From: Chitinophagaceae bacterium | GTDB taxonomy: Bacteria; Bacteroidota; Bacteroidia; Chitinophagales; Chitinophagaceae | Assembly (NCBI GenBank): GCA_947447825.1 | Contig: CANFLL010000021.1 | Location: 1 to 51,360, forward strand | Direction of reading: 5' to 3' | Length of the DNA stretch: 51,360 nucleotides | Notes under the pieces: generated by a model | The model's input: the letters and a program-made list of their open reading frames with translations, nothing else | Told to the model about the DNA's origin: nothing | The model's database searches: none | Position numbers and translations under genes: made by a program | Part shown: in pieces, positions 9,158-47,182 of the stretch | Numbering within the stretch: the stretch's first letter is position 1 | Layout: each line of letters opens with the position of its first letter

Positions 9158-9187
9158 AAAAAAAAGAGGGGGGACGCTGCCCCCCTC
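9158..9187 (-). terminator. Rho-independent terminator of the 721-residue LRR gene
   Basis: On the minus strand the stem GAGGGGGG/CCCCCCTC encloses the loop CAGCGT and is followed by eight T residues. The same hairpin with small changes follows the three other T9SS genes (11518, 14283, 16182). Confidence 0.85.
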
Positions 9188-9193
9188 CTGTTA

Positions 9194-9290
9194 TGTCTGA
9201 ACCATGATTTATAAGATTAAAATGATTTGTGAGATTTTTGGAGGATAATCCTTTTTAATCATCAAAATCCTATAAATCCTGGTTCAGACA
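9194..9290. repeat. 97-bp imperfect palindrome, copy 1
   Basis: The ends TGTCTGAACC and GGTTCAGACA are perfect inverted copies. Inner arms GATTTATAAGATT/AATCCTATAAATC and ATGATT/AATCAT also pair, around a central GGAGGATAATCC. It starts 7 bp after the LRR stop codon in the gene's direction, before the G/C terminator. Nearly identical copies follow the next two genes (11552-11647, 14318-14414). Confidence 0.9.
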
Positions 9291-9297
9291 ACAACTC

Positions 9298-11463
9298 CTA
9301 TTCCTTCACAAACCTCACTCCACTCACCTTGCCATCAGCAGTCTGTATCCGCAGATGATATACCCCTGCCGGTAAAACCCTAATAGACAGAGTGGGGTTA
9401 GTAGCATGATTTAAAGAAACACCCTTTACCACCCTTCCCATATTATCTATTACTTGTACAGAAGTTATTTTATTACCCATAACCGTAACAACATCTCTTG
9501 ATGGGTTAGGGATAATTGACAATTGATAATTATCAATTGTCAATTGAACTGAAACCACTTGGCTATATGTACTTGCCCCATCTTTATCAATAGCTTTTAT
9601 CCGGTAGTAAAGCCCCCCTGCCCCCCTAAAGGGTGGTTCTGCATCAACGTAACTATAACTATTATTGCCACTACCTACAGCAGTTTTGGTGTTTACATCC
9701 GTAAAGTTTACACCATCTAAGCTGCGTTGGATGGTAAAAAAGCCCGTATTTACCTCCCCCATTGTTTGCCATTGCAACTGCACCTGCCCATTAGTTTGTT
9801 TCGCACTTAGGGTAATGTCTTTAATGGGCAGGGTGGTAATGTTGATGGTATCGCTATATAAAGTAAGCTTGGTAGCCACTGCATTGCTTGCCACCACCCA
9901 GTATTTACCATTGGCAGTTACGGTGTAGGTGCTATCGCTTTTGTTTGTTGCTACCAGTGTGCCATTCTTATACCATTTGTAGGTATTGTTGGTAGTTGTG
10001 CCACCTATGGAAACAGATAGTGTATTGCCATTTTGTAGTAGGGAAACATTTGCTTGTGGGACATACACCGCAAAAGAATACTTTTTCGCAATAGCCTCAA
10101 CCCCACTAAAAATTAACTTATTGTTGTTTAGTGCCAAACTTATCAAGTAGGGTAGGTTAACCAATGAACTAGGGATTGCCCCTTTTAGGTTATTGGCGGC
10201 AAGTGAAATACCTGTTACCCGCCAGTTGTACTCTGTTACCCCAAACCAACTGCTTACAGGGAGTTTGGTTAACCAGTTGGTGTGGTTTACCCATGTTGCA
10301 CCACCTGTGCTGTTGTACAGATCTACCAAGGCAAGGCTGTCCTGTATGTTTGTTGGGTAGTTGATGGTGATGGTGTCGCTGTGCAGGGTAAGATATATGG
10401 CAACGGCATTTGTGGCGGCTGTATAGTAAAGTCCATTACTGGTTGGTCTGTAACTACTGTCGATGGTTTTTGTTGCTACCAATGTGCCACTATTATACCA
10501 TTTGTAGGTATTATTTATTGGTGTGCCACCTACAGAAACTGAAAGGGTAGTATCAGCATTGTTTTGTTGTAGTGGCACTATTGCTTGTGGGGCATAAAGA
10601 TTATTATACGCTTTTAGCTTGGCAATTGGCTCCATACCTGCAAAAGTGAATTTATTGTTAGACACCCCACCTTGTCCAGTGGGGCTAAGTTTGGTTAGGT
10701 TAAGTATGGAAGAAGGAATTGTGCCACTCAATTGGTTGTTTTGCAAAACAAAGAAAGTTAGGTTGGTTAAGTTACCCAAGGATGTAGGGATTGTGCCAGT
10801 TAATTGATTATTATACAACCTTAGCTCAACTAGGTTAGTCAAGTTGCCTAAAGAAGAGGGGATTGTACCACTTAATTGATTATAACATAGAACAAGTTCT
10901 TGCAAGTTGGTTAGGTTGCCTAATGAAGCAGGGATTGCGTTGCTTAGTTTATTATTATTCAAATAAAGCTTTGTTAGATTAGTTAAGTTGCCAAAAGAAG
11001 AAGGAATTGAACCAGTTAGTTGATTACCACTTAAACCAAGAAATTGCAGACTGGTAAAATTTCCTAATGAAGAAGATATTGTATCAGTTAGTGTATTATG
11101 AGATAAATCCAAATAAGCCAGGTTGGTTAAATTGCCTAAAGAACTGGGAATTCTACCTGTTAATTTGTTGCCCAAAAGTAAATACGTTAGTTTATTCAGA
11201 TTGCCTAAAGAGTAAGGGATGCTACCTTTTAAACCAGTAACAAGTTTTATAGAATCAACCCTATTATTTGCATCCAGCCCAATTCCATACCAAGTACTAA
11301 CAGGAGCTTTTGTTAACCAATTAGTTTTAGAATACCAATTAGCCCCATCTGTACTATCATATAAATTTACCAAAGCAAGGCTGTCTTGTATGTTTACCTG
11401 TGCTTTTAGGTTCGTTGCAGCAAACAAGCATACGGCAATCAGGAGTGTGGATATTTTTTTCAT
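9298..11463 (-). CDS. Secreted leucine-rich-repeat protein with T9SS type A sorting domain
   Basis: 721 residues. A signal peptide (1-21, ending L-K-A-Q) is followed by an LRR N-cap (D-S-L-A-L-V-N-L-Y-D-S-T...N-W) and eight plant-type 24-residue LRRs (S-L-G-N-L-T-N-L...G-x-I-P). Next comes an Ig-like domain (Y-K-W-Y-N-S-G-T-L-V-A-T), a second cap with one LRR, a second Ig-like domain, a fibronectin-like domain (L-Q-W-Q-T-M-G-E) and a sorting domain (I-I-P-N-P-S...F-V-K-E). The body is closely related to the adjacent 857-residue gene, but the sorting domain matches that of the NHL-repeat protein instead. A G/C palindromic element supplies the residues P-P-F-R-G-A-G-G-L in the fibronectin-like domain. 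Cell-surface ligand binding or adhesion is inferred from LRR and Ig domains; no enzyme motif is visible. Confidence 0.88.
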   Translation of the reverse strand: MKKISTLLIAVCLFAATNLKAQVNIQDSLALVNLYDSTDGANWYSKTNWLTKAPVSTWYGIGLDANNRVDSIKLVTGLKGSIPYSLGNLNKLTYLLLGNKLTGRIPSSLGNLTNLAYLDLSHNTLTDTISSSLGNFTSLQFLGLSGNQLTGSIPSSFGNLTNLTKLYLNNNKLSNAIPASLGNLTNLQELVLCYNQLSGTIPSSLGNLTNLVELRLYNNQLTGTIPTSLGNLTNLTFFVLQNNQLSGTIPSSILNLTKLSPTGQGGVSNNKFTFAGMEPIAKLKAYNNLYAPQAIVPLQQNNADTTLSVSVGGTPINNTYKWYNSGTLVATKTIDSSYRPTSNGLYYTAATNAVAIYLTLHSDTITINYPTNIQDSLALVDLYNSTGGATWVNHTNWLTKLPVSSWFGVTEYNWRVTGISLAANNLKGAIPSSLVNLPYLISLALNNNKLIFSGVEAIAKKYSFAVYVPQANVSLLQNGNTLSVSIGGTTTNNTYKWYKNGTLVATNKSDSTYTVTANGKYWVVASNAVATKLTLYSDTINITTLPIKDITLSAKQTNGQVQLQWQTMGEVNTGFFTIQRSLDGVNFTDVNTKTAVGSGNNSYSYVDAEPPFRGAGGLYYRIKAIDKDGASTYSQVVSVQLTIDNYQLSIIPNPSRDVVTVMGNKITSVQVIDNMGRVVKGVSLNHATNPTLSIRVLPAGVYHLRIQTADGKVSGVRFVKE
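9519..9546. repeat. 28-bp perfect palindrome encoding a linker
   Basis: Half-site TTGACAATTGATAA is followed at once by its exact reverse complement. It encodes the linker (T-I-D-N-Y-Q-L-S-I) between the fibronectin-like domain and the sorting domain of the 721-residue LRR protein. The boundaries were placed by eye and may be off by a base or two. Confidence 0.75.
9612..9640 (-). repeat. G/C palindromic element inside the LRR gene
   Basis: On the gene strand it contains ACCCTTTAGGGGGGCAGGGG and is read as P-P-F-R-G-A-G-G-L. The paralogues have A-A-S-G-V-N-Y or P-T-N-V-I-N-Y at this point, so the segment looks inserted or substituted. It belongs to the same family as the copies in hisF and trpA. 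Confidence 0.7.
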
Positions 11464-11517: not shown

Positions 11518-11544
11518 AAAAAAGAGGGGGGACGCTGCCCCCCT
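11518..11544 (-). terminator. Rho-independent terminator of the 857-residue LRR gene
   Basis: Minus-strand stem AGGGGGG/CCCCCCT with loop CAGCGT, then C and six T residues. It lies 55 bp upstream of the next gene's start codon, so that gene's promoter must sit in a very short space or inside the repeat. Confidence 0.8.
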
Positions 11545-11551
11545 ACTGTAA

Positions 11552-11647
11552 TGTCTGAACCATGATTTATAAGATTAAAATGATTTGTGAGATTTGCGGA
11601 GGACATCCTTTTTAATCATCAAAATCCTATAAATCTTGGTTCAGACA
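11552..11647. repeat. 96-bp imperfect palindrome, copy 2
   Basis: Same TGTCTGAACC...GGTTCAGACA element as at 9194-9290, differing at a few bases mainly in the central segment. It begins 7 bp beyond the stop codon of the 857-residue LRR gene. Confidence 0.9.
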
Positions 11648-11654
11648 ACAACTC

Positions 11655-14228
11655 CTATTCCTTCACAAACCTAGTGGTTTGTCTATCGCCATCCTTACCC
11701 ACCAGCTCCAGCAAGTAAACTCCTGCGGTCAGGTTTTTCACGTTAATACCCGTACCGTTGCCGCCAACAACCACGCTGGTTGAGACCTGTTTGCCCAAAA
11801 CAGATATGATGATTGCATTGTAGCTCTTGCCAACCCCGATGCCACCAATGGTCAATACATCCTTGGCAGGGTTGGGGAAAGTGGTTAGAGATAAGTGGTT
11901 AGTGGTTAGTGAAACTATTTTGCTGTAGGCTATTACTCCAGTCTTATCTATTGATTTTATACGATAATAGTTTACGCCACTAGCAGCAGAAGCATCAATA
12001 TAACTGTAACCATTGGCACCACTACCTACGGCGGTTTTGGCATTAACATCTATAAAGTTTACACCATCAATGCTGCGTTGAATAACAAACGATGCCGCAT
12101 TTATCTCTCCCATTGTCTGCCATTGCAACTGCACCTGCCCATTGGTTTCTTTTGCACTTAGTGTGATGTCCTTTATTGGCAGGGTAGTTATATTGATAGT
12201 ATCACTGTAAAGCGTAAGTTTTGTAGCCACCGCATTGGTTGCCGCCACCCAGTATTTGCCATTGGCGGTAACAGTGTAGGTGCTATCTGCCACTTTTGTA
12301 GCCACCAACGTATCATTCCTATACCATTTAAAGGAATTGTTGGCGGGTGTGCCGCCTACAGAAACAGACAAGCTGTTGCCATTTTGTAGTAACGGTACAA
12401 TTGCCTGATGCGCGTAAGTGGCAAACGAAAATTTCTTTGCAATATTCTCAATCCCACTAAAAGTTAATTGGTTGTTGTTTAGTACCAAACTTGAAAGGTA
12501 GGGCAAGCTATCCAATGAAGCAGGTATTGCCCCCTTTAGGTTATTGGCGGCAAGTGAGATGCCTGTAACCCGCCAGTTGTACTCTGTTACCCCGTACCAA
12601 CTGCTTACAGGCAATTTGGTTAGCCAGTTGGTATGGTTTACCCAGTTTGCGCCACCTGTGCTGTTATATAAAGCCACCAAGGCAAGGCTGTCTTGTGGGT
12701 TGGTCGGGTAGTTGATGATGATGCTATCGCTGTATAGGGTGAGTTTTGTGGCAATGGCATTGGTGGCAGCCACATAGTATAGCCCATTGCTGGTAGGCCT
12801 GTAGGTACTGTCACTTTTTATGGTGGTTACCAGTGTGCCGCTATTAAACCATTTATAAGTATTGTTGGCAGGTGTGCCACCCACAGCAACTGAGAAAGTA
12901 GTATCACTTTTTTTTAAAGTTAACGGTACAATGGCCTGAGGACTATAATAAGAAACAGATTTCCTTGCGAGAGCCTCCATGCCATTAAAGGTTAGTTGAT
13001 TATTATTGATGGACAAACTCAAAAGCTGGGCTTGGCTACCCAATGTGGAAGGGACGGTGCCACTTAATTGGTTATAGCTAAGGTTTAAAAGGTTTAGCTT
13101 GGGGAGGTTACCCAAGGAAGAAGGGATGCTACCTGTTAATTGATTGTTGTAGAGGTACAGAAAGTATATTTTAGTAAGGTTGCCAAAGGAAGGGGGGAAA
13201 GAGCCACTTAATTTATTACTATCAAGATATAAATAGTGAAGGTTGGGGATGTTACCCAAGGATGAAGGAATGGTATCGGTTAATTGATTACTATATAATT
13301 TCAAATTTGTAAGGCTGGTCAGGCTTCCCAAAGAGGGAGGGATGGCACCACTCAACTGGTTGTCGTTCAAAAATAATTGGTTCAGGTTGGTTAGGTTGCC
13401 CAAGGAAGAAGGAATACTACCCGTTAACTTATTATTCCAAAGTTGCAAATCAATCAAATTGGTTAGGTTACCCAAAGAAGCTGGTATTACACCACTTAAT
13501 TGATTATTATATAATTCTAAATAGGCAAGGTTGGTTAAATTACCAAAAGAAACAGGTATGTTACCTGTTAGGTTATTGCCAACCAATTCCAAATCTGTAA
13601 CATTAGTTAGGTTGCCCAAGGAAGAAGGGATAGTATCGCTTAATTGATTTAAGTTGAGATATAGTGTTTGCAGGTTAATTAAATTTCCTAAGGAAGAGGG
13701 TATAGAACCAGTTAAATTGTTAACTACGAGATTTAATACAGTAAGTTTTGATAAATTACCCAAGGAAGAAGGGATACTCCCTGTCAAATTATTGAAGTGT
13801 AAATCTAAATAGTTAAGATTTGTTAAATTTCCTAAAGAAGATGGGATATTTCCCGTCAAATTATTATCAGTTAGGTCTAAATATGTAAGGTTTGTTAAGT
13901 TGCTAATTGAAGGCGGTATACTCCCTACTAAATTATTAGATGAAAGATTTAAATACTTAAGATTAATTAAGTTGCCTATAGAAATTGGGATAGACCCACC
14001 TGATAGATAGACTTTCAAATTTATAGAATCAACGCGGTTATTTGAATTTACACCTATCCCATACCAACTACTTACAGGTGCTTTACTTAACCAATTAGTT
14101 CCATTCAAGCCATTTGTGCTATCATATAGTTCTACTAGTATAAGGCTATCTTGTTTGTTTACTTGGGCTTTGAGGGTGGACACTGCAAATAAGCATACAG
14201 TAATAAAGAGTGTGGATATTTTTTTCAT
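11655..14228 (-). CDS. Secreted leucine-rich-repeat protein with T9SS type A sorting domain (857 aa)
   Basis: 857 residues with the same plan as its downstream neighbour: signal peptide (1-21), cap with D-S-L-I-L-V-E-L-Y-D-S-T, then about fourteen 24-residue plant-type LRRs (G-S-I-P-S-S-L-G-N-L-T-N-L), Ig-like domain, second cap with one LRR, second Ig-like domain, fibronectin-like domain (L-Q-W-Q-T-M-G-E-I) and a sorting domain (F-P-N-P-A-K-D-V-L-T-I-G-G...R-F-V-K-E). The extra LRRs relative to the 721-residue paralogue suggest expansion by unequal recombination among 72-bp units. The sorting domain is of the kind seen in the 2273-residue protein, not that of the LRR paralogue. Predicted to be exported by T9SS and attached to the surface; ligand unknown. 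Confidence 0.88.
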   Translation of the reverse strand: MKKISTLFITVCLFAVSTLKAQVNKQDSLILVELYDSTNGLNGTNWLSKAPVSSWYGIGVNSNNRVDSINLKVYLSGGSIPISIGNLINLKYLNLSSNNLVGSIPPSISNLTNLTYLDLTDNNLTGNIPSSLGNLTNLNYLDLHFNNLTGSIPSSLGNLSKLTVLNLVVNNLTGSIPSSLGNLINLQTLYLNLNQLSDTIPSSLGNLTNVTDLELVGNNLTGNIPVSFGNLTNLAYLELYNNQLSGVIPASLGNLTNLIDLQLWNNKLTGSIPSSLGNLTNLNQLFLNDNQLSGAIPPSLGSLTSLTNLKLYSNQLTDTIPSSLGNIPNLHYLYLDSNKLSGSFPPSFGNLTKIYFLYLYNNQLTGSIPSSLGNLPKLNLLNLSYNQLSGTVPSTLGSQAQLLSLSINNNQLTFNGMEALARKSVSYYSPQAIVPLTLKKSDTTFSVAVGGTPANNTYKWFNSGTLVTTIKSDSTYRPTSNGLYYVAATNAIATKLTLYSDSIIINYPTNPQDSLALVALYNSTGGANWVNHTNWLTKLPVSSWYGVTEYNWRVTGISLAANNLKGAIPASLDSLPYLSSLVLNNNQLTFSGIENIAKKFSFATYAHQAIVPLLQNGNSLSVSVGGTPANNSFKWYRNDTLVATKVADSTYTVTANGKYWVAATNAVATKLTLYSDTINITTLPIKDITLSAKETNGQVQLQWQTMGEINAASFVIQRSIDGVNFIDVNAKTAVGSGANGYSYIDASAASGVNYYRIKSIDKTGVIAYSKIVSLTTNHLSLTTFPNPAKDVLTIGGIGVGKSYNAIIISVLGKQVSTSVVVGGNGTGINVKNLTAGVYLLELVGKDGDRQTTRFVKE

Positions 14229-14282: not shown

Positions 14283-14310
14283 AAAAAAGGAGGGGGATGC
14301 TGCCCCCTCC
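14283..14310 (-). terminator. Rho-independent terminator of the NHL-repeat gene
   Basis: Minus-strand stem GGAGGGGG/CCCCCTCC with loop CAGCAT followed by six T residues. The stem is changed compensatorily relative to the other three copies, which supports a selected hairpin. Confidence 0.8.
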
Positions 14311-14317
14311 TATATCT

Positions 14318-14414
14318 TGTCTGAACCATGATTTATAAGATTAAAATGATTTGTGAGATTTGCGGAGAATAATCCTTTTTAATCATCAAAATCCTATAAA
14401 TCTTGGTTCAGACA
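14318..14414. repeat. 97-bp imperfect palindrome, copy 3
   Basis: Third copy of the TGTCTGAACC palindrome, starting 7 bp beyond the stop codon of the NHL-repeat gene. Most differences from the other copies lie in the centre, while the arms are nearly identical. Confidence 0.9.
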
Positions 14415-14421
14415 ACAACCC

Positions 14422-16083
14422 TTATTTCTTCACAAACCCTACTCCACTCTCTTTACCATCTATTGTTTGCACACGCAAATGATAAGCCCCTGCCGGCAAA
14501 CCAACCACAGAAAGCGTAGGGTTAGTAGCATCTTTTAGGGAAACAACCTTTACTACCTTTCCTGAATTATCAATTACCTGTAAAGAAGAAATGTGGCTAC
14601 CCTTAACAATTACATTATCCTTACTTGGGTTGGGATACAGAGTTAACTGATTACTGTTTACGGTAAACTGCACAGAAACAACTTTGCTAAAAGTAGAACT
14701 TCCATCCTTATCTACATTTTTAAGCCTGTAATAGTTAATGACATTGGTAGGACTATTATCTGTGAAACTATACTCATTTGCCCCACTGCCCACAGCTTTT
14801 AATGTGCCTATGTCTGTAAATGAAATACCATCCATACTCCTTTCTACCACAAAGTGGTCTGCATTCAGTTCTGTAACGGTCTGCCAGCCCAGTAGTACAC
14901 CGCTTGTCGCATGGGTTGCCGAAAAACCCATTAGCCGCAACGGTAAGACTTTGGTGTACGTTATTTTGCGTACACGGTTAAAGACTGAGTTCGATAAATA
15001 TATATTTCCACTTGTATCTATGGTCAAATAATTAGGGTAATCTATTTCTGCATTAAGGGGATTTCCCCCGTCTCCACTATAACCAAATTTTCCATTGCCG
15101 GCAATAGTAGTAATGGTATCGTTGGTTACCTTTCGGATAACGTAATTGGCTTGATCTGTTATATATAAGTTGCCTAGTTTATCAAGTGCGACCCCATAAG
15201 GTCCATCCAATTCTGCATTTATAGCCTTCCCCCCGTCGCCACTATAACCAGGGGTACCCTTACCCACAACCGTGGTGATAATGCCATTAGTGGATACCTT
15301 ACGGATACGGTAGTTAAGATTATCGGCTATGTAAATATTACCTGCGTTATCAACAAGTATCTCATGTGGGTTATTTAAAACTGCATTTGTTGCAAGCCCC
15401 CCATCACCACTAAAACCACCTTGAAAGCTACTACCCGCAACCCTAGTAATGATGCCACTTGTGTCTATTTTGCGCACACGGTTTGTTCCATCCACAAAAA
15501 ACACATTTCCTATCGTATCTATTGCCAGCCCCAATGGGTTGTATAGTGTTGCTTTTATGGCAGGTCCTCCATCGCCAATAAGTCCTATTGCGCCCGTTCC
15601 GGCAATGGTGGTGATGATGCCGGCCGTGTCTATTTTGCGGATACGGTTGTTTACCGCGTCTGCAATGTAGATATTCCCATGCTTGTCTACTTTTACATCA
15701 AAAGGAACATTCAGTTGCGCTTTGGTTGCCAATATACTGTCCCCATTGTACCCCCCTATTGTTCCTATGCCTGTATTGGTCGTTCCGCCGTTAATGCCAG
15801 CAATGGTGGTGATGGTGCCGTTGGGTGCTACCTTGCGGATGCGCTGGTTATCGTGTTCGGCAATCAATAAATTACCATGGTTATCCAAGGTAATTCCATA
15901 AGGTCCCAACAATTCCGCCTTTGTGGCGGGGCCACCATCGCCACTAAAACCTGCCGTACCCGTGCCAGCAATGGTGGTGATGGTAGCAATAGTGGTTTGG
16001 GCAGTAGTACGTTGCACAATTGCCGATAATAGACAACAAGCAAGAAGTTTACAACTGTTTCTGAAAATAAGTTTTGTACACAT
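14422..16083 (-). CDS. Secreted NHL-repeat protein with T9SS type A sorting domain
   Basis: 553 residues. After an N-terminal hydrophobic signal segment (about residues 8-28, ending T-T-A-Q) come six NHL repeats (G-T-I-T-T-I-A-G...G-F-S-G-D-G-G-P-A...L-x-x-P-x-G-I-x-x-D-x-x-G-N-L-x-I-A-D...R-I-R-K-V), which should close as a six-bladed beta-propeller over residues 32-375. A fibronectin-like domain (L-G-W-Q-T-V-T-E-L-N-A-D-H-F-V-V-E-R-S) and a sorting domain (L-Y-P-N-P-S-K-D...G-F-V-K-K) follow. NHL propellers bind ligands or act as scaffolds; no catalytic residues are evident. It shares its 5' leader and 3' palindrome with the two LRR genes downstream. Confidence 0.88.
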   Translation of the reverse strand: MCTKLIFRNSCKLLACCLLSAIVQRTTAQTTIATITTIAGTGTAGFSGDGGPATKAELLGPYGITLDNHGNLLIAEHDNQRIRKVAPNGTITTIAGINGGTTNTGIGTIGGYNGDSILATKAQLNVPFDVKVDKHGNIYIADAVNNRIRKIDTAGIITTIAGTGAIGLIGDGGPAIKATLYNPLGLAIDTIGNVFFVDGTNRVRKIDTSGIITRVAGSSFQGGFSGDGGLATNAVLNNPHEILVDNAGNIYIADNLNYRIRKVSTNGIITTVVGKGTPGYSGDGGKAINAELDGPYGVALDKLGNLYITDQANYVIRKVTNDTITTIAGNGKFGYSGDGGNPLNAEIDYPNYLTIDTSGNIYLSNSVFNRVRKITYTKVLPLRLMGFSATHATSGVLLGWQTVTELNADHFVVERSMDGISFTDIGTLKAVGSGANEYSFTDNSPTNVINYYRLKNVDKDGSSTFSKVVSVQFTVNSNQLTLYPNPSKDNVIVKGSHISSLQVIDNSGKVVKVVSLKDATNPTLSVVGLPAGAYHLRVQTIDGKESGVGFVKK

Positions 16084-16111: not shown

Positions 16112-16140
16112 GCCCCCCGTCCCCTAAAGGGGGGAGTAGG
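16112..16140 (-). repeat. G/C palindromic element in the NHL-gene leader
   Basis: Minus-strand reading CTCCCCCCTTTAGGGGACGG replaces the part of the conserved leader seen upstream of the two LRR genes, 29 bp before the start codon. Same family as the coding copies in hisF and trpA. Confidence 0.75.
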
Positions 16141-16181
16141 TCAAAAATATAATAATGAATTTAAAACGATAGACAGATATT

Positions 16182-16209
16182 AAAAATAGGGGGGACGCTG
16201 CCCCCCTAT
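16182..16209 (-). terminator. Rho-independent terminator of the 2273-residue gene
   Basis: Minus-strand stem TAGGGGGG/CCCCCCTA with loop CAGCGT followed by five T residues. This gene has the terminator but not the 97-bp palindrome; the palindrome position holds a G/C element instead. Confidence 0.8.
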
Positions 16210-16220
16210 TGTCATCCCAA

Positions 16221-16244
16221 AGTTCCCCTTTAGGGGCGAAGGGG
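16221..16244 (+). repeat. G/C palindromic element abutting a stop codon
   Basis: AGTTCCCCTTTAGGGGCGAA followed by GGGG ends exactly at the stop codon of the 2273-residue gene, antisense to it. Core identical to the copies elsewhere except for one G-to-A change. Confidence 0.8.
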
Positions 16245-33642: not shown

Positions 33643-34470
33643 TTATATACGCACATGAATATTTTGTTCTTTAAGATAACTTTTCAAATCGGGGATACTT
33701 ATTTCCTTAAAATGAAAGATACTTGCCGCCAAAGCAGCATCTGCTTTGCCTTTCGTAAACACATCAACAAAGTGTGGCATTGTTCCACCGCCACCACTTG
33801 CAATGATTGGCACAGGCAACAAATCGCTCAAAACACTGGTAATATCCAACGCAAAACCCTGCTTTGTACCATCATGATTCATGGAAGTAAGTAGTATTTC
33901 GCCAGCGCCTAAGTCCACCGCTTGCTTTGCCCAATCAATTGTTTTAGCTTGTGTTTTTATGCGTCCACCATTAAGGTAAACATACCATTCGCCATCATCC
34001 TCCAAACGGGTATCAATAGCCAAAACAACAAATTGGCTACCAAATTCCTTTGCCAAATCATTAATTAATTGAGGGTTTCTAAAGGCTGCCGAGTTTATAC
34101 TTACCTTATCAGCCCCATTTTTCAATAACACAGAAGCATCATCAATAGAACTAACACCACCACCAACAGTAAACGGAATATTAATATATCGTGCAATTCT
34201 GTTTACCAGTTCGCTCAACGTTTTACGCTTTTCTACTGTAGCTGTAATATCCAAAAAAACCAGTTCATCAGCACCTTGTTCGGCATAGAAGGCACCCAAT
34301 TCAACTGGGTCGCCCGCATCACGGATATTCTCGAAGTTTACCCCTTTAACTGTTCTTCCATCACGAATATCGAGGCAAGGAATGATGCGTTTTGCGAACC
34401 CCTCCGCCCCTGCCCCTCCGCCCCTAAAGGGGGACTGTGAAGCACCCGAACTATTGATATTTTGTTCCAT
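33643..34470 (-). CDS. hisF: Imidazole glycerol phosphate synthase cyclase subunit, with element-derived N-terminal extension
   Basis: 275 residues, about 24 more than the usual ~251. The normal protein begins at residue ~26 ([18 protein letters not shown]), with catalytic Asp34 and a second Asp in A-I-D-T-R. The extra N-terminus, [20 protein letters not shown], is mostly encoded by a G/C palindromic element and its flanks (34399-34436). The ATG at 34470 is the only Met before the conserved start. With HisH it forms the synthase that closes the imidazole ring. Upstream lies the 81-bp repeat array, whose units contain a near copy of this gene's start region. A start at a non-ATG codon nearer the conserved domain cannot be excluded. 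Confidence 0.95.
34399..34436 (-). repeat. G/C palindromic element inside hisF
   Basis: On the gene strand it reads AGTCCCCCTTTAGGGGCGGA, then GGGGCAGGGGCGGAGGGG, so the right part is duplicated. It is translated as [12 protein letters not shown]. The frame differs from that used in trpA. Confidence 0.85.
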
Positions 34471-34503
34471 TTTAAATTATTAAGTTTATACAACCTCAAT
34501 TCT

Positions 34504-34866
34504 GTAAACGACCTAGTTTCCCTTTAGGGACGGAAGGGCAATATCTTCCATTTTAAATTGTTAAAATTAAATGTCTTTCACCCAGTAAACGACCTAGTTT
34601 CCCTTTAGGGACGGAAGGGCAATATCTTCCATTTTAAATTGTTAAAATTAAACGTCTTTCACCCAGTAAACGACCTAGTTTCCCTTTAGGGACGGAAGGG
34701 TATTATCTTCCATTTTCAATTGTTAAAATTAAACGTCTTTCACCCAGTAAACGACCTAGTACCCCTTTAGGGGCGGAGGGGTTACTTAGTTTCCCTTTAG
34801 GGACGGAAGGGTAATATCTTCCATTTAAAATTCTTTAATTTAGACATCTTTCACCTAATGAACGAC
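34504..34866. repeat. 81-bp tandem array with embedded G/C elements and mini-ORFs
   Basis: Three exact-length 81-bp units start at 34504, 34585 and 34666. A fourth, longer unit at 34747 carries an extra inserted G/C element (ACCCCTTTAGGGGCGGAGGG). Each unit includes TTTCCCTTTAGGGACGGAAG. On the minus strand each unit has a 12-codon ORF reading M-E-D-(I/N)-(A/T)-L-P-S-L-K-G-N-stop, at 34513-34551, 34594-34632, 34675-34713 and 34786-34824. The sequence around each mini-ORF start (ATTTAAAATGGAA) is the same as around the hisF start. Confidence 0.9.
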
Positions 34867-34929
34867 CTATTTTTTCTTTAAATACGAACTGGTATAAGAA
34901 AAAAGAAAATTTTATTCATCAATAAAATG

Positions 34930-35097
34930 ATTTACTTGATGAAGTTTTTCATTTATCTAATGAAATTTTCCATTTACTTGAAGAAGTTTTTCATTTACTT
35001 AATGAAGTTATTCAATTAATTAATGAAGTTTTTCAATTACTTAATGAAGTTTTTCGTTTACTTGATGAAGTTTTTCATTTACTTGATGAAGTTTTCC
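34930..35097. repeat. Eight 21-bp tandem repeats between hisA and hisF
   Basis: Consensus ATTTACTTGATGAAGTTTTTC, repeated eight times without spacers and with one to four changes per unit. It ends 32 bp before the hisA stop codon. Stops occur in most frames, so it is treated as non-coding. A 30-codon hydrophobic plus-strand frame at 34927-35019 is noted under findings. Confidence 0.9.
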
Positions 35098-35129
35098 ATT
35101 TTCCTCATCAAGAAAACAAGCCAATTTTA

Positions 35130-35858
35130 TCAATTAACCGCTATCAATTCCTCCAAAGAAATCCTATTTTCATAAATGGCCTTACCAATGATAACACCCT
35201 TGCAGCCAGCCTTTTGCAATTCATAAACATCATCAATCGTAGCAACACCGCCACTTGCAATCAAGTGCAATTGAGGGAATCGAGCCAAAATATTTTTATA
35301 TAAATCGATAGAAGGCCCTTCCAGCTTACCATCCTTACTAACATCGGTACAAAATATTTGCTGCACCCCAAGTTTTAGATAGTCTTCGATAAAGTCATAA
35401 ATATTGATGCCCGTGGTCTCCAACCAACCTCCAATGGCTATCATCTCGTCTTTTACATCAGCACCCAATAAGAATTTATCAGCACCATAAGCCTGCAACC
35501 AACTAACAAAAGTGGGTTTATCCTTCACGGCAATGCTCCCAACAGTGGCATAAGCGGCACCAGAACTGAACACAATATCCACGTCCTCTTTCTTTTTAAT
35601 ACCACCGCCAAAATCAATTATCATTTTTGTTTGCGATGCGATGGCTTCCAAAACCTTCCAATTCTTAACCGATCCAGCCTTTGCCCCATCCAAATCTACC
35701 AGATGCAAGCGATGCAAACCTGCATCTTCAAACATAAGAGCAACCTCCAATGGGTTTTCGTTATAAATGGTTTTCTGGGCATAATCGCCTTGCGTAAGGC
35801 GAACACATTTACCATCGATAATATCTATTGCGGGAATAATCTCTATATATGAATCCAT
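35130..35858 (-). CDS. hisA: ProFAR isomerase (phosphoribosylformimino-5-aminoimidazole carboxamide ribotide isomerase)
   Basis: 242 residues, normal length. It is a TIM-barrel paralogue of HisF that isomerises ProFAR to PRFAR. The catalytic Asp12 (P-A-I-D-I-I-D-G) and the Asp in C-T-D-V-S-K-D-G are present, as are the phosphate-binding G-G-G-I and A-S-G-G-V loops. It starts 60 bp after hisH; the 659-bp repeat-filled gap to hisF downstream is unusual for his genes, which are normally tightly packed. Confidence 0.95.
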   Translation of the reverse strand: MDSYIEIIPAIDIIDGKCVRLTQGDYAQKTIYNENPLEVALMFEDAGLHRLHLVDLDGAKAGSVKNWKVLEAIASQTKMIIDFGGGIKKKEDVDIVFSSGAAYATVGSIAVKDKPTFVSWLQAYGADKFLLGADVKDEMIAIGGWLETTGINIYDFIEDYLKLGVQQIFCTDVSKDGKLEGPSIDLYKNILARFPQLHLIASGGVATIDDVYELQKAGCKGVIIGKAIYENRISLEELIAVN

Positions 35859-35918
35859 ACTCTTCTATTACTTGTGTTCTTGGTGAAACCCTTGTGTACT
35901 TTGTGGTTAGCTTGTTTC

Positions 35919-36545
35919 TTACAATTCAATAAAATTCTTCAAAATCCGCTCTCCCACCACCGATGATTTTTCTGTATGAAATTGAACACCATAGAAGTTA
36001 TCCTTATTAAATGCGGCACTATAGGGCTGCACATAATTGGTGGTGGCGATGGTGTACTCATTTAAAGGAACAAAATAACTATGTACAAAATAGCAGTAAC
36101 TGTTTTCAGCCAAGCCTTCCATCAATGGGGACTTTAAATCGTATAGCGTGTTCCACCCAATTTGAGGGACTTTTATTTTGCTATATTTTTCTGGACGAAA
36201 GAGTTTTACCGGCTGATGAAGAATATCCAAGCAGGGAGTATTGTTCTCCTCAGAAAAAGTGCAAAGCAATTGCATACCAACACAAATCCCCAAAACAGGT
36301 TGCTTTAATTCTTTGATAACCGCATCAAGGTTATTCTCTTTGAGGCTATTCATGGCACTACTTGCTTCACCCACACCTGGGAATATTACCTTATCAGCCG
36401 CCATTATCTCTTCGTGATTATCGGTAACAATAGCATTAACTCCAATCCTTTCCAACGCATACAACACACTTTGAATGTTTCCTGCATTGTATTTTACAAT
36501 GACAATATTGCCTCTATTTTCTTTTATTGTAGAATCTATGCTCAT
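35919..36545 (-). CDS. hisH: Imidazole glycerol phosphate synthase glutaminase subunit
   Basis: 208 residues. Class I glutamine amidotransferase that feeds ammonia to HisF. The nucleophile Cys88 lies in G-I-C-V-G-M-Q-L-L, and the His190/Glu192 pair in G-V-Q-F-H-T-E-K-S. The oxyanion segment P-G-V-G is at 56-59. About 12 residues (M-S-I-D-S-T-I-K-E-N-R-G) precede the conserved N-I-V-I-V-K-Y-N-A-G-N; no other start codon of the ATG type is available. It follows the DUF6155-like gene by 13 bp. Confidence 0.95.
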   Translation of the reverse strand: MSIDSTIKENRGNIVIVKYNAGNIQSVLYALERIGVNAIVTDNHEEIMAADKVIFPGVGEASSAMNSLKENNLDAVIKELKQPVLGICVGMQLLCTFSEENNTPCLDILHQPVKLFRPEKYSKIKVPQIGWNTLYDLKSPLMEGLAENSYCYFVHSYFVPLNEYTIATTNYVQPYSAAFNKDNFYGVQFHTEKSSVVGERILKNFIEL

Positions 36546-36558
36546 TTGTTATTGTTAA

Positions 36559-37077
36559 TTATTTAGAAAGATATTCATCATAAGCATATTTAAGCGCATC
36601 ATGAAAGCCCCAACCAAAGTTTCTGGTTGAGTAAACTACCTCATTGCATCTTAACTTGAATTCATCTTCTAGCATTTCTTTTTGTATTAACTCTACTGCT
36701 TTATGAAAGGCATTAACGGCAGAATCATAAAATGGAATGTCAATATCACCATATTCTTTCGTAAACTCAACCGCCATCTCCACCCTATACAAAATAACAT
36801 CAATTAAATCCCTTGGATAAATAGATACTTTAGTAAATTCACTTATGATCTTTTTAACTTCTGATAAACGTGCTTTTCCAAAACCCCTATCGGGCATATA
36901 CTCCTTTTTAATCTTGTCTTTTACCTTTTTTACTATTTCAGAAGTGTCTCCACTAATTTCAATGTCGTAAAAGGTTTTTACATTATCAAACTTCTGATAC
37001 AACTTTTCAACTTCCTTTATCAACTCTTCTTTCGTTAAATCATTCAAGAACTTAGTCAGATCTCTTTTTGAAGCCAT
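36559..37077 (-). CDS. DUF6155-like protein of unknown function
   Basis: 172 residues, soluble and strongly charged. It opens S-K-R-D-L-T-K-F-L-N-D-L-T-K-E-E-L-I-K-E-V-E-K-L-Y-Q-K-F, a pattern I associate with DUF6155, and is predicted mainly helical; no catalytic motif or membrane segment is visible. It is wedged between trpA (6 bp upstream) and hisH (13 bp downstream), so it is surely co-transcribed with them. That position does not prove a role in amino-acid synthesis. The family name is from memory and needs a profile search. Confidence 0.8.
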   Translation of the reverse strand: MASKRDLTKFLNDLTKEELIKEVEKLYQKFDNVKTFYDIEISGDTSEIVKKVKDKIKKEYMPDRGFGKARLSEVKKIISEFTKVSIYPRDLIDVILYRVEMAVEFTKEYGDIDIPFYDSAVNAFHKAVELIQKEMLEDEFKLRCNEVVYSTRNFGWGFHDALKYAYDEYLSK

Positions 37078-37083
37078 ACAATA

Positions 37084-37893
37084 TTATTTTAAAATACTGT
37101 CTAAAAAAGCCTTTGTTGTTTGTTCCACATTGGTAGAACCTTCCAATGCCTTAATGTAAGCCGTACCAATAATTGCCCCATTGGCATATTTGCAAGCAGC
37201 AGAGAAAGTGGATTTATCTTTAATGCCAAAGCCGACCAATATTGGGTTATTCAACTTCATTGATTTCAATCTTTCCAAATACTTTTCTACAGCATTAAAA
37301 TCTTTCTCATTCCCTGTTGTAGAAGATGAGGATACTGCATACAAAAAACCACTACTCAACGAATCTAGCCTTCTCACACGCTCTTCACTAGTTTCGGGAG
37401 TAACCAAAAAGATAAAGTCTAAACCATACTTCTTAATGATAACCCCATATTCTGTTTCGTATTCATATTCTGGCAAATCTGGCAATATCAAACCATCAAC
37501 ACCAACAGCAGCTGCATCAGCACAAAACTTTTCAAATCCGTATTGCAACACAGGATTCATATATCCCATCAGAATGATAGCCGCTTTCTTTTCATACCCC
37601 TCCGCCCCTGAAGGGGAACTTTGGTTGCTCCCCTTTGGATGGGGGCGCAACTGATTAAACAATGTGGCTATCGTCATTCCATTAGCCAAAGCAACATTAC
37701 TACTTGCTTGAATTACAGGGCCATCAGCCAAAGGATCGCTGTAAGGCATTCCGAGTTCTATAATATCCGCGCCATTGGCTTGAAGTGTATTGATAATTGT
37801 AAGCGTACTATCCAAATGAGGATACCCAGCCGTACAATAAACATTTAAAACATTATTGGATTTATTCTTGAAAACCTCTTGTAACTTACTCAT
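37084..37893 (-). CDS. trpA: Tryptophan synthase alpha chain with inserted loop
   Basis: 269 residues. It cleaves indole-3-glycerol phosphate to indole and glyceraldehyde 3-phosphate. Catalytic Glu46 (I-I-E-L-G-M-P-Y-S-D-P) and Asp57 (L-A-D-G-P) are intact, as is L-M-G-Y-M-N-P-V-L-Q-Y-G and the phosphate-binding V-G-F-G-I. Between the helix before residue 83 and K-K-A-A-I-I-L-M-G at 102 there is an extra segment R-P-H-P-K-G-S-N-Q-S-S-P-S-G-A-E-G-Y-E encoded by a G/C palindromic element (37597-37648). The loop lies before strand 4 on the barrel's edge and may be tolerated. trpB and the other trp genes are not adjacent; trpA leads the his cluster here. Confidence 0.95.
   Translation of the reverse strand: MSKLQEVFKNKSNNVLNVYCTAGYPHLDSTLTIINTLQANGADIIELGMPYSDPLADGPVIQASSNVALANGMTIATLFNQLRPHPKGSNQSSPSGAEGYEKKAAIILMGYMNPVLQYGFEKFCADAAAVGVDGLILPDLPEYEYETEYGVIIKKYGLDFIFLVTPETSEERVRRLDSLSSGFLYAVSSSSTTGNEKDFNAVEKYLERLKSMKLNNPILVGFGIKDKSTFSAACKYANGAIIGTAYIKALEGSTNVEQTTKAFLDSILK
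37597..37648 (-). repeat. G/C palindromic element inside trpA
   Basis: On the gene strand a first half CGCCCCCATCCAAAGGGGAG and a second half AGTTCCCCTTCAGGGGCGGA, then GGGG, are joined by CAACCA. It is read as P-H-P-K-G-S-N-Q-S-S-P-S-G-A-E-G. The frame is shifted by two bases relative to the hisF copy. Confidence 0.85.
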
Positions 37894-38319: not shown

Positions 38320-38610
38320 GCGTGCTTTACGTTGCACAACCCAGTGTTTTACGTTACTTAACCCCTAGCTTTACGTCAATCAGTGCGTGCTTTACGTCTC
38401 CTTACGTATACCACGCATTGATTGACATGAAATTTTACGTCTCCCTACGTATACCACGGTCTAATTGACGTAAAGTTTTACGTCCCTCCACGTAAAGCAC
38501 GGCCTGATTGACGTAAAAGTTTACGTCTCCCTACGTAAAGCACGGCCTGATTGACGTAAAATTTTACGTCCCTCCACGTAAAGCACGGTCTGATTGACGT
38601 AAAGATTTAG
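38320..38610. repeat. 43-bp tandem repeats rich in TTTACGT palindromes
   Basis: Five units of exactly 43 bp start at 38396. The consensus begins GTCTCCCTACGTAAAGCACG and ends TGATTGACGTAAAATTTTAC. Junctions create palindromes such as GACGTAAAATTTTACGTC. The left flank (38320-38395) has shorter degenerate units with CGTGCTTTACGT in the opposite orientation to the ACGTAAAGCACG in the main units. Non-coding; lies about 280 bp upstream of smc. Confidence 0.9.
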
Positions 38611-38891
38611 GTTAAAAGGTGAGAAGTTTAATGATTAGTGAATACACAACTCAAAGAATTAACAAAAGCATTGGCCATGAATAAAAATGAAAAACAAAGA
38701 GTAATATGTTCACTTGGATGTGTAGCATCAAAATAAACCTTGTGTACTTAGTTTCTACCTAGTGTCACTAGTGGTAAATACCTATCAAACAACTCTTTAT
38801 TAACTTTTCTATCTTTTTGTCCACATTGTGGATAACCGCCTTTGTGGTGAGTAACTATTGCCTTATGTTCGCAGACACTTAAAGAATTGGT

Positions 38892-45962: not shown

Positions 45963-46204
45963 ATTTGCTACCAACATCAAGCAAAACGAAGTTTAATTAT
46001 TAAAATAAAGACCTTCTGCTTTTATGGTTGTTTGTCCAGAATACCAAACAACTGGGAGTAAGTCAATCAACTTTCTTTTCAATCACCCAAATCCCTTTAT
46101 CTTCTATAAATATAAATACTAACCTTTATCAAATCAACTGTAACCCATACAATTCTATGTAAAAGAGTATTAAATGAGGCTTATGCAGGTTGTAATAACA
46201 CTAA

Positions 46205-46447
46205 ATAGTTTCGCTTACTCCATAACCCACAGGATAATGCTCCAAGTCGTATCGTTTGCTGCATAACCCACAGGATATTGCTCCAAGTCGTACAGCTTGG
46301 TGCATTCCCTACAGGATAATGCTCCAAGTCGTATCGCTTGCTGTATTCCCCACAGGATATTGCTCCAAGTCGTACCGCTTGGTGCATTCCCTACAGGATA
46401 ATGCTCCAAGTCGTATCGCTTGCTGTATTCCCCACAGGATATTGCTC
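46205..46447. repeat. 41-bp tandem array with alternating unit types
   Basis: Five full 41-bp units from 46229 to 46433 are flanked by partial units on both sides. Units alternate between type A (ACAGGATAATGCTCCAAGTC, then GTATCGYTTGCTG) and type B (ACAGGATATTGCTCCAAGTC, then GTAC(A/C)GCTTGGTG), giving an 82-bp higher-order period. There are no unique spacers, so it is not a CRISPR array. Confidence 0.92.
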
Positions 46448-47182
46448 TCAGTAAAAAAAAGGATAAAAAAGCTAAGAAAATATTTATTATGGGTATTGCT
46501 CGGAATAACCAGTATTGTACTTTACAAGAACAACTTTTACCCAATAAAACTTTCTAGATAAAGGACGACCTAATTACTCGCCCCCACATTTTCCTAGTTT
46601 CATAAGTCTGTCAAAAAGAATTTCTCTTTAGCGTAGGAATGTATTAGTCTTAAAGACACACTACGAAAATTAAGGTTCTGGTTGATGAATCCTTTCATGT
46701 GCAGCTTATTACTAGACTAATTCTTTATCTCCTCTAATCAAATAAGGTATTGTCATTGCTTATAGTATCATATCCAAAAAATCATGCTAACTCAATAGTT
46801 GATAATGAGGAGCGTTTATTGCTGGTAGACTCATCTAGGGAGATGTATAATTTTGAAAGGCAGTTACCAATATTTGTTTCGAAATGTATAAAAAATCATG
46901 AACTAAAAATAAAAATTCCATAATTAATAATGAAGCGAGCATTATTGTTATTCTTTTTTTACAACTCAAATACACAAAAAATGCTCGTTTCTTTATTAAG
47001 ATTAAATTATTTATAAAGTAAAAAATACCAGAAACAGTAATTTATCCTTATATTTAATCTCACATTAAAATCGAAATAAAAGTGATATAATTAAATAACT
47101 AAGAATCTATTGTTTAAAACAAAGAACACATACAATTCAAATCAAACACTACTTTTACCCCACAAATTAATTTATTGCTATT

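Follow-up and report, generated by a model that had tools for sequence, protein, structure and literature searches.

Palindromes read in frame in hisF and trpA of a Chitinophagaceae bacterium as probable terminal repeats of a mobile DUF559 element

Introduction

How does a short palindrome come to lie in frame inside a conserved enzyme gene? To our knowledge, the route by which protein-coding palindromes enter genes has been unsolved since their discovery in Rickettsia. The question arises again in a Chitinophagaceae bacterium, in a stretch of 51,360 nucleotides (contig CANFLL010000021.1, assembly GCA_947447825.1; hereafter the window) in which hisF and trpA carry the same palindromic core, CCCCTTTAGGGGCGGAGGGG. 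A preliminary description of this stretch left open how the element moves, for which homing by a DUF559 nuclease is a candidate answer. We consider it probable that the two palindromes derive from a compact mobile element encoding a DUF559 protein, of which they would be the terminal inverted repeats, and, with about the same confidence, that such elements are inserted in a homing-like manner by the encoded nuclease and then lose their interior. The window appears to hold only derivatives without DUF559. This reading draws on features that the sequence itself shows, namely in-frame position, bracketing repeats, presence and absence at shared sites, site reuse, a decay series and cassette homology between unrelated genes. 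Genomes and loci are given G and L numbers (the host genome is G000), and names that go beyond Pfam families (MurG, ThrB, ArgB, trpE, trpG, NirD and others) are our own readings.

Results

Palindromes in hisF and trpA

The features of the two genes, as obtained from the open reading frame (ORF) list, Pfam, a start-codon scan (hisF) and comparison with relatives (cassettes in congeners for the leader), are as follows.

33643..34470, minus strand: hisF (Pfam His_biosynth), with an N-terminal extension replacing the native start
34440..34470, minus strand: start codon and leader peptide newly provided by the hisF cassette
34396..34439, minus strand: right terminal repeat, hairpin CCCCTTTAGGGG plus outer block CGGAGGGG, partly duplicated, within the predicted HisF translation
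37084..37893, minus strand: trpA, enlarged in frame by a net 14 residues before LMGYMNP
37595..37626, minus strand: right terminal repeat in trpA (AACCAAAGTTCCCCTTCAGGGGCGGAGGGGTA)
37627..37648, minus strand: GCGCCCCCATCCAAAGGGGAGC in trpA, taken as a decayed left terminal repeat

Pfam confirms both HisF and TrpA, and the core lies where the preliminary description had placed it, at 34413-34432 (-) in hisF and, with one mismatch, at 37597-37616 (-) in trpA. The two copies are indeed read in different frames, as SPFRGGG in HisF and SPSGAEG in TrpA, and relatives lacking the element do not share the extra residues that had been ascribed to it, since most hisF genes surveyed keep their native start and the two nearest relatives lack the trpA insert (see below). 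The same description had seen in the hisF extension a short element; the element is present, but as one part of a cassette that supplies a 5' leader and a start codon as well.

In hisF the native start codon is lost, and reading from the upstream ATG at 34470 runs through the element. Within the first 40 codons no ATG, GTG, TTG or CTG follows that ATG, only ATC and ATT, so the element must be translated in HisF unless a rare start is used. The open frame is unbroken across the extension in all six members of the genus compared, the distance from ATG to KRIIP, counted by hand, ranging from 22 to 37 codons (window 27, L011 22, L012 37, L015 32, L016 26, L017 28). Among 81 loci, 28 of which gave no hisF by the motif used, 39 of the 53 hisF genes found have the native ATG; it is absent in 14, two of which (L020 and L036) resemble ordinary GTG or TTG starts. 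The strict core occurs within 75 nt in eight of the 53.

TrpA has 269 residues in the window and 255 in the two nearest relatives (L011 and L012), which lack the 14-residue insert. In alignments with solved TrpA the insert falls in the gap region before the LMGYMNP strand. By a rule that was defined after the loops had been viewed, that accepted one-mismatch forms and that scored the variant palindrome of L018 as core-less, seven of 81 TrpA genes have a core in this loop. They are scattered on the tree and require seven changes, at least six of them forced by supported branches; therefore, the loop was hit repeatedly. A plasmid search using the insert peptide gave no match, and Rfam returned two matches, both sub-threshold, in the region containing hisF and trpA.

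DUF559 between the repeats

Inverted repeats flank 26 of the 35 DUF559 copies tested (one of 36 was left out because of a cut flank) and 3 of 219 random segments. The 35 are not all separate sites, several being shared between related genomes. The full unit, left repeat, DUF559 frame and right repeat, measures 417-581 nt in 16 copies. DUF559 lies in frame inside leucyl-tRNA synthetase (LeuRS), adenine deaminase, chorismate synthase, acyl-CoA mutase, HisA, HisF and others. By sequence and predicted fold it matches Vsr and the homing endonuclease I-Bth0305I, the kinship to a homing nuclease being to 3r3p, again by sequence and by fold. No intein Hint domains were found among the Pfam matches (E<=0.001) of ten fused ORFs, and intron searches of ten DUF559 loci gave no Rfam match at gathering thresholds. 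In a tree of 34 of the 36 domains found, ArgB copies group across genomes, and so do HisA-junction copies.

Three loci (L238, L252 and L267) encode an amino-acid kinase, ArgB by our reading, with an N-terminal DUF559; in L238 and L252 the kinase also has two further palindrome-type peptides internally. The adenine deaminase frame of L265 (G012) holds DUF559 together with an in-frame array of repeated peptides (SNQFSNKDHFEDTKPVSE). A DUF559 match with stops at G064:C70:114353-114886 (L293 / L109) lies between palindrome copies, as a decaying element; ahead of it stand three copies in tandem, spaced by about 56 bp.

These findings bear on another possible mover. The palindromes could be elements of the type of repetitive extragenic palindromes (REPs) or of REPINs, moved by a REP-associated tyrosine transposase (RAYT; Y1 HUH transposase), with DUF559 an unrelated passenger. 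The window's genome does have five Y1_Tnp matches, four above the cut-off and one on a contig with two cores about 4 kb away, and copies of the palindrome are frequently arranged as inverted pairs, as in REPINs. However, none of the five fetched Y1 loci (2.6-3.2 kb each, all from the host genome) holds a core, bracketing inverted repeats are missing by the same test at four of them (they are present at L091), and what lies between the repeats is DUF559, not Y1. We regard this explanation as unlikely, a judgment that concerns the host genome with its five matches and core-free loci.

Filled, broken and empty sites

Among 31 genomes of one other genus searched at hisF, seven carry intact DUF559-HisF fusions with an unbroken frame (G428, G504, G501, G503, G488, G499 and G510). 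The 30 hisF loci read also include three copies broken by a stop or frame (G506, G282 and G492), two remnants (G490 and G486), one very short form (MKPIGGLAK in G487), two that begin with MSLAKRI and 15 with the native MLxKRI. HisF of G489, without insert, is 98% identical to the filled HisF of G428. The fusion junction peptide, SPFRG(L/R/P/A)GG, is of the same kind as SPFRGGG in the window. The G282 copy suggests that remnants can derive from the DUF559 C-terminus. In three loci (L353, L354 and L355, from G489, G509 and G511) the hisA-hisF spacer is without DUF559 and has instead an inverted repeat, CGTCATTGCGAGG...CCTCGCAATGACG.

At LeuRS, residues 472-623 of the G206 protein are extra; the two halves adjoin in 13 of the 15 further congeners examined, whose first half is 85-93% identical, G462 has DUF559 at a different LeuRS site and G465 gave no match. 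Both hisF and LeuRS thus show polymorphic insertion at the same conserved site, as is characteristic of homing genes. Between hisH and hisA, G010 has a cassette, DUF559 and a second cassette, while G001 has one cassette, closer to the first of G010 than to the second, which is what deletion between repeats would leave if the change ran in that direction; here as in each single case, we infer deletion rather than gain. Between trpE and trpG, DUF559 is found in G061, G062 and G063, with repeats on both sides at L237 and L241 but not at L250, and TrpG of G005 has a leader and a palindrome.

The preliminary description had taken the window's copies for the hallmark of Rickettsia palindromic elements (RPEs). 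That palindromes lie in frame in housekeeping genes of Bacteroidota stands; they are best read, though, as the two ends of a unit that can hold DUF559. An element of the Rickettsia type without its own nuclease, and only secondarily associated with DUF559, would explain translated palindromes in unrelated genes, as in the RPEs described in PMC10969869. The same kind of repeats nevertheless brackets DUF559 at the hisF and hisA sites themselves, with intermediates, and we hold this explanation to be distinctly unlikely.

The cassette and its place relative to genes

In the window's genus the stretch before the right repeat consists of a 5' leader, an ATG and about 12 codons. The hisF leader at 34440..34470 is homologous to the cassettes of murG, hisA and one DUF559 gene in congeners, and with the left repeat removed all 21 pairs of these cassettes are homologous, as compared with none of 500 shuffles.

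A wider core pattern matches 12 of 13 genomes of the genus (reversed control 0) and 27 of 395 genomes of the phylum; the reversed control matches 18 of the 395 with at most two matches each, so single matches in that survey may be due to chance. At least three matches occur in nine genomes (G000, G016, G167, G282, G329, G340, G428, G436 and G444). All eight genomes with at least three core matches that were compared for DUF559 had it, and so did 13 of 34 without a core match; within the genus, five of 13 genomes have a DUF559 match.

By a simple purpose-made gene caller, and with overlapping duplicates of the variable-gap pattern removed, the 157 distinct copies at the fetched loci fall into 60 within called genes, 90 intergenic and 7 across a gene end. 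A gene boundary lies within 25 nt of 64 of the 93 non-genic copies with an outer gene (46 stops, 18 starts). Pfam was run on 30 of the 56 host frames that contain copies and gave a domain (E<=1e-8) for 29, including TsaD, glycosyltransferase 28 (MurG), prephenate dehydrogenase, HisA, threonine dehydratase, shikimate kinase, argininosuccinate synthase, ArgC-type dehydrogenase, PRA isomerase, proline racemase, porphobilinogen deaminase and DNA polymerase A.

Such a cassette could instead be a selected expression device, providing a 5' leader, a start codon and an N-terminal tag, with mobility incidental. It is homologous within the genus, and 25 of the 45 in-gene copies on the same strand and with an uncut start lie 10-14 codons past the start codon. 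Nevertheless, the cassette is patchy among congeners, remnants decay, the internal insertions of TrpA and LeuRS cannot serve for expression, and the tsaD and argC cassettes are not homologous to that of hisF (a finding that also counts against our own reading); we think this quite improbable. Ordinary fusions and drift, with HisF starting downstream and the segment untranslated, are very improbable: REPs in the 5' ends of ORFs of P. putida, C. koseri and S. maltophilia are mostly judged probably non-coding in PMC3733652, but the same paper mentions expression of RPE-1 proteins of R. conorii, and here no common start codon lies downstream, the frame is retained in all six congeners and the TrpA and LeuRS inserts are internal.

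Other copies and repeats in the window and host genome

Allowing up to three mismatches, the window contains ten core-like matches, as compared with a mean of 0.00 in 100 shuffles. Copies and repeats outside the two genes are as follows.

16113..16244: two inverted copies, 16113-16132 (minus) and 16225-16244 (plus)
9613..9634, minus strand: further copy, in frame within a 725-codon open frame (EPPFRGAGGLYYR)
34519..34811, plus strand: five left-type repeats in the hisA-hisF spacer, inverted relative to hisF, partly as an 81-bp tandem array

The preliminary description had proposed a core search of the genome, and in the host assembly (4.65 Mb, 187 contigs, 97% complete) this gave 17 distinct places, with none for the reversed control pattern. 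By our reading seven of the 17 lie in frame inside genes: HisF, TrpA, a xanthine dehydrogenase frame (two copies), a NirD-type C-terminus, an 856-aa DUF7149/DUF7814 protein and the 725-codon frame at 9613. At least two others (16113 and C125:2730) are in open frames directly upstream of a likely start codon and may or may not be translated. Xanthine dehydrogenase in L005, L009, L184 and L186 forms one frame across the presumed usual subunit junction, the linker being translated palindromes in both orientations (G000, G003 and G004; Pfam on L184).

Other repeats also occur in the window. The hisA-hisF spacer has four 12-codon mini-frames at 34551-34824 (-) (MEDIALPSLKGN twice, MEDNTLPSLKGN and MEDITLPSLKGN), each entering a left-type repeat, and 21-bp tandem repeats of TTACTTGATGAAGTTTTTCAT type at 34890-35133. 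Upstream of trpA, at 38348-38612, lie tandem repeats of 43 bp with many occurrences of TTTACGTC and ACGTAAAGCACG. Three similar copies at 9160-9315, 11518-11672 and 14284-14439 combine a GGGGGGACGCTGCCCCCC-type palindrome with the inverted block TGTCTGAACCATGATTTATAAGATT, and an array of 41-bp tandem repeats lies at 46162-46489.

Discussion

The mechanism that we propose would run as follows. The element would occupy gene junctions or gene interiors, often in frame, and its nuclease would be a portion of the host protein or a product of the host operon, searches of the fused ORFs and loci having found no signal for splicing. As a nuclease of the Vsr / I-Bth0305I type, the DUF559 protein would cut at or near conserved sites, and repair would copy the element into the cut site, as in homing. 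The nuclease frame would then be lost by internal deletion. In TrpA the repeats would remain as a short peptide scar; in HisF the left repeat, 5' leader, start codon, leader peptide and right repeat would remain, fused to the gene. Copies without nuclease may move in trans while the genome retains a DUF559; in the window's genome, which has no DUF559 match, they are probably static and tolerated. Cutting, copy route, movement, mobilisation in trans and protein expression are what we infer.

Several observations weigh against this proposal. Not only the window's genome but also G001, G003, G004 and G006 have many cores and no DUF559 match, and the presence of DUF559 is no clear-cut or simple predictor of cores. 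For nine of the 35 DUF559 copies the test gives no bracketing inverted repeats, the copies at LeuRS site A are not monophyletic on the DUF559 tree, and none of the TrpA proteins seen contains a full DUF559. At 16 junctions no target-site duplication is evident by eye, and some inserts, as bounded there, are not multiples of three. Some DUF559 domains in long frames may belong to ordinary multidomain proteins, and the counts of copy positions include orthologous copies and are not independent. The leader peptide looks similar to the DUF559 N-terminus in some genes, but we do not claim it as a remnant of that N-terminus.

Parallels with known systems are partial. As with RPEs, palindromic repeats are found in frame in unrelated genes that remain intact, a likeness of position in genes; in contrast to RPEs, they are the paired ends of a unit able to hold DUF559, in a different phylum. 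Intragenic GTAG/CGTC-tagged REPs are likewise short palindromes, often near gene ends and some in ORFs, according to PMC3733652. Here, by eye, there is no end tag (the ends are AGT..CCCC plus the outer block, and AT-rich variants contain CGTC internally), and no Y1 gene was found beside copies in the host genome. Miniature inverted-repeat transposable elements and DNA transposons share the terminal inverted repeats and the coexistence of copies with and without enzyme; the enzyme here, however, is a PD-(D/E)XK-type nuclease, no target-site duplication is evident at the junctions read and many copies are in frame. Compared with homing endonucleases of the I-Bth0305I (Vsr-like) type, no intron or intein was found, DUF559 stays in the host frame and inverted repeats lie at both ends. 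Caulobacter VsrA, a Vsr mismatch endonuclease, contains DUF559, of the same domain family and fold (PMC12907096), whereas DUF559 here lies between inverted repeats and is fused to unrelated enzymes. In open-licence PubMed Central papers we found no description linking DUF559 to palindromes or to in-frame insertion.

We lean towards regarding DUF559 elements as mobile DNA of a new class. In such an element, a nuclease frame flanked by inverted repeats with hairpins would home into conserved genes and gene junctions while keeping the reading frame; it would never be spliced out, would rely on the host enzyme for its expression and would end as translated palindromic scars. In-frame palindromes elsewhere may share a comparable origin. 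Palindromes bracket an enzyme gene, and full, broken, remnant and empty states occur at one site in one genus; with all these states at hand, the mover is directly testable. LeuRS and similar enzymes contain one or two nuclease domains and show no sign of splicing, the insertion points mark where conserved proteins tolerate additions, and the orphan domain DUF559 gains a candidate role.

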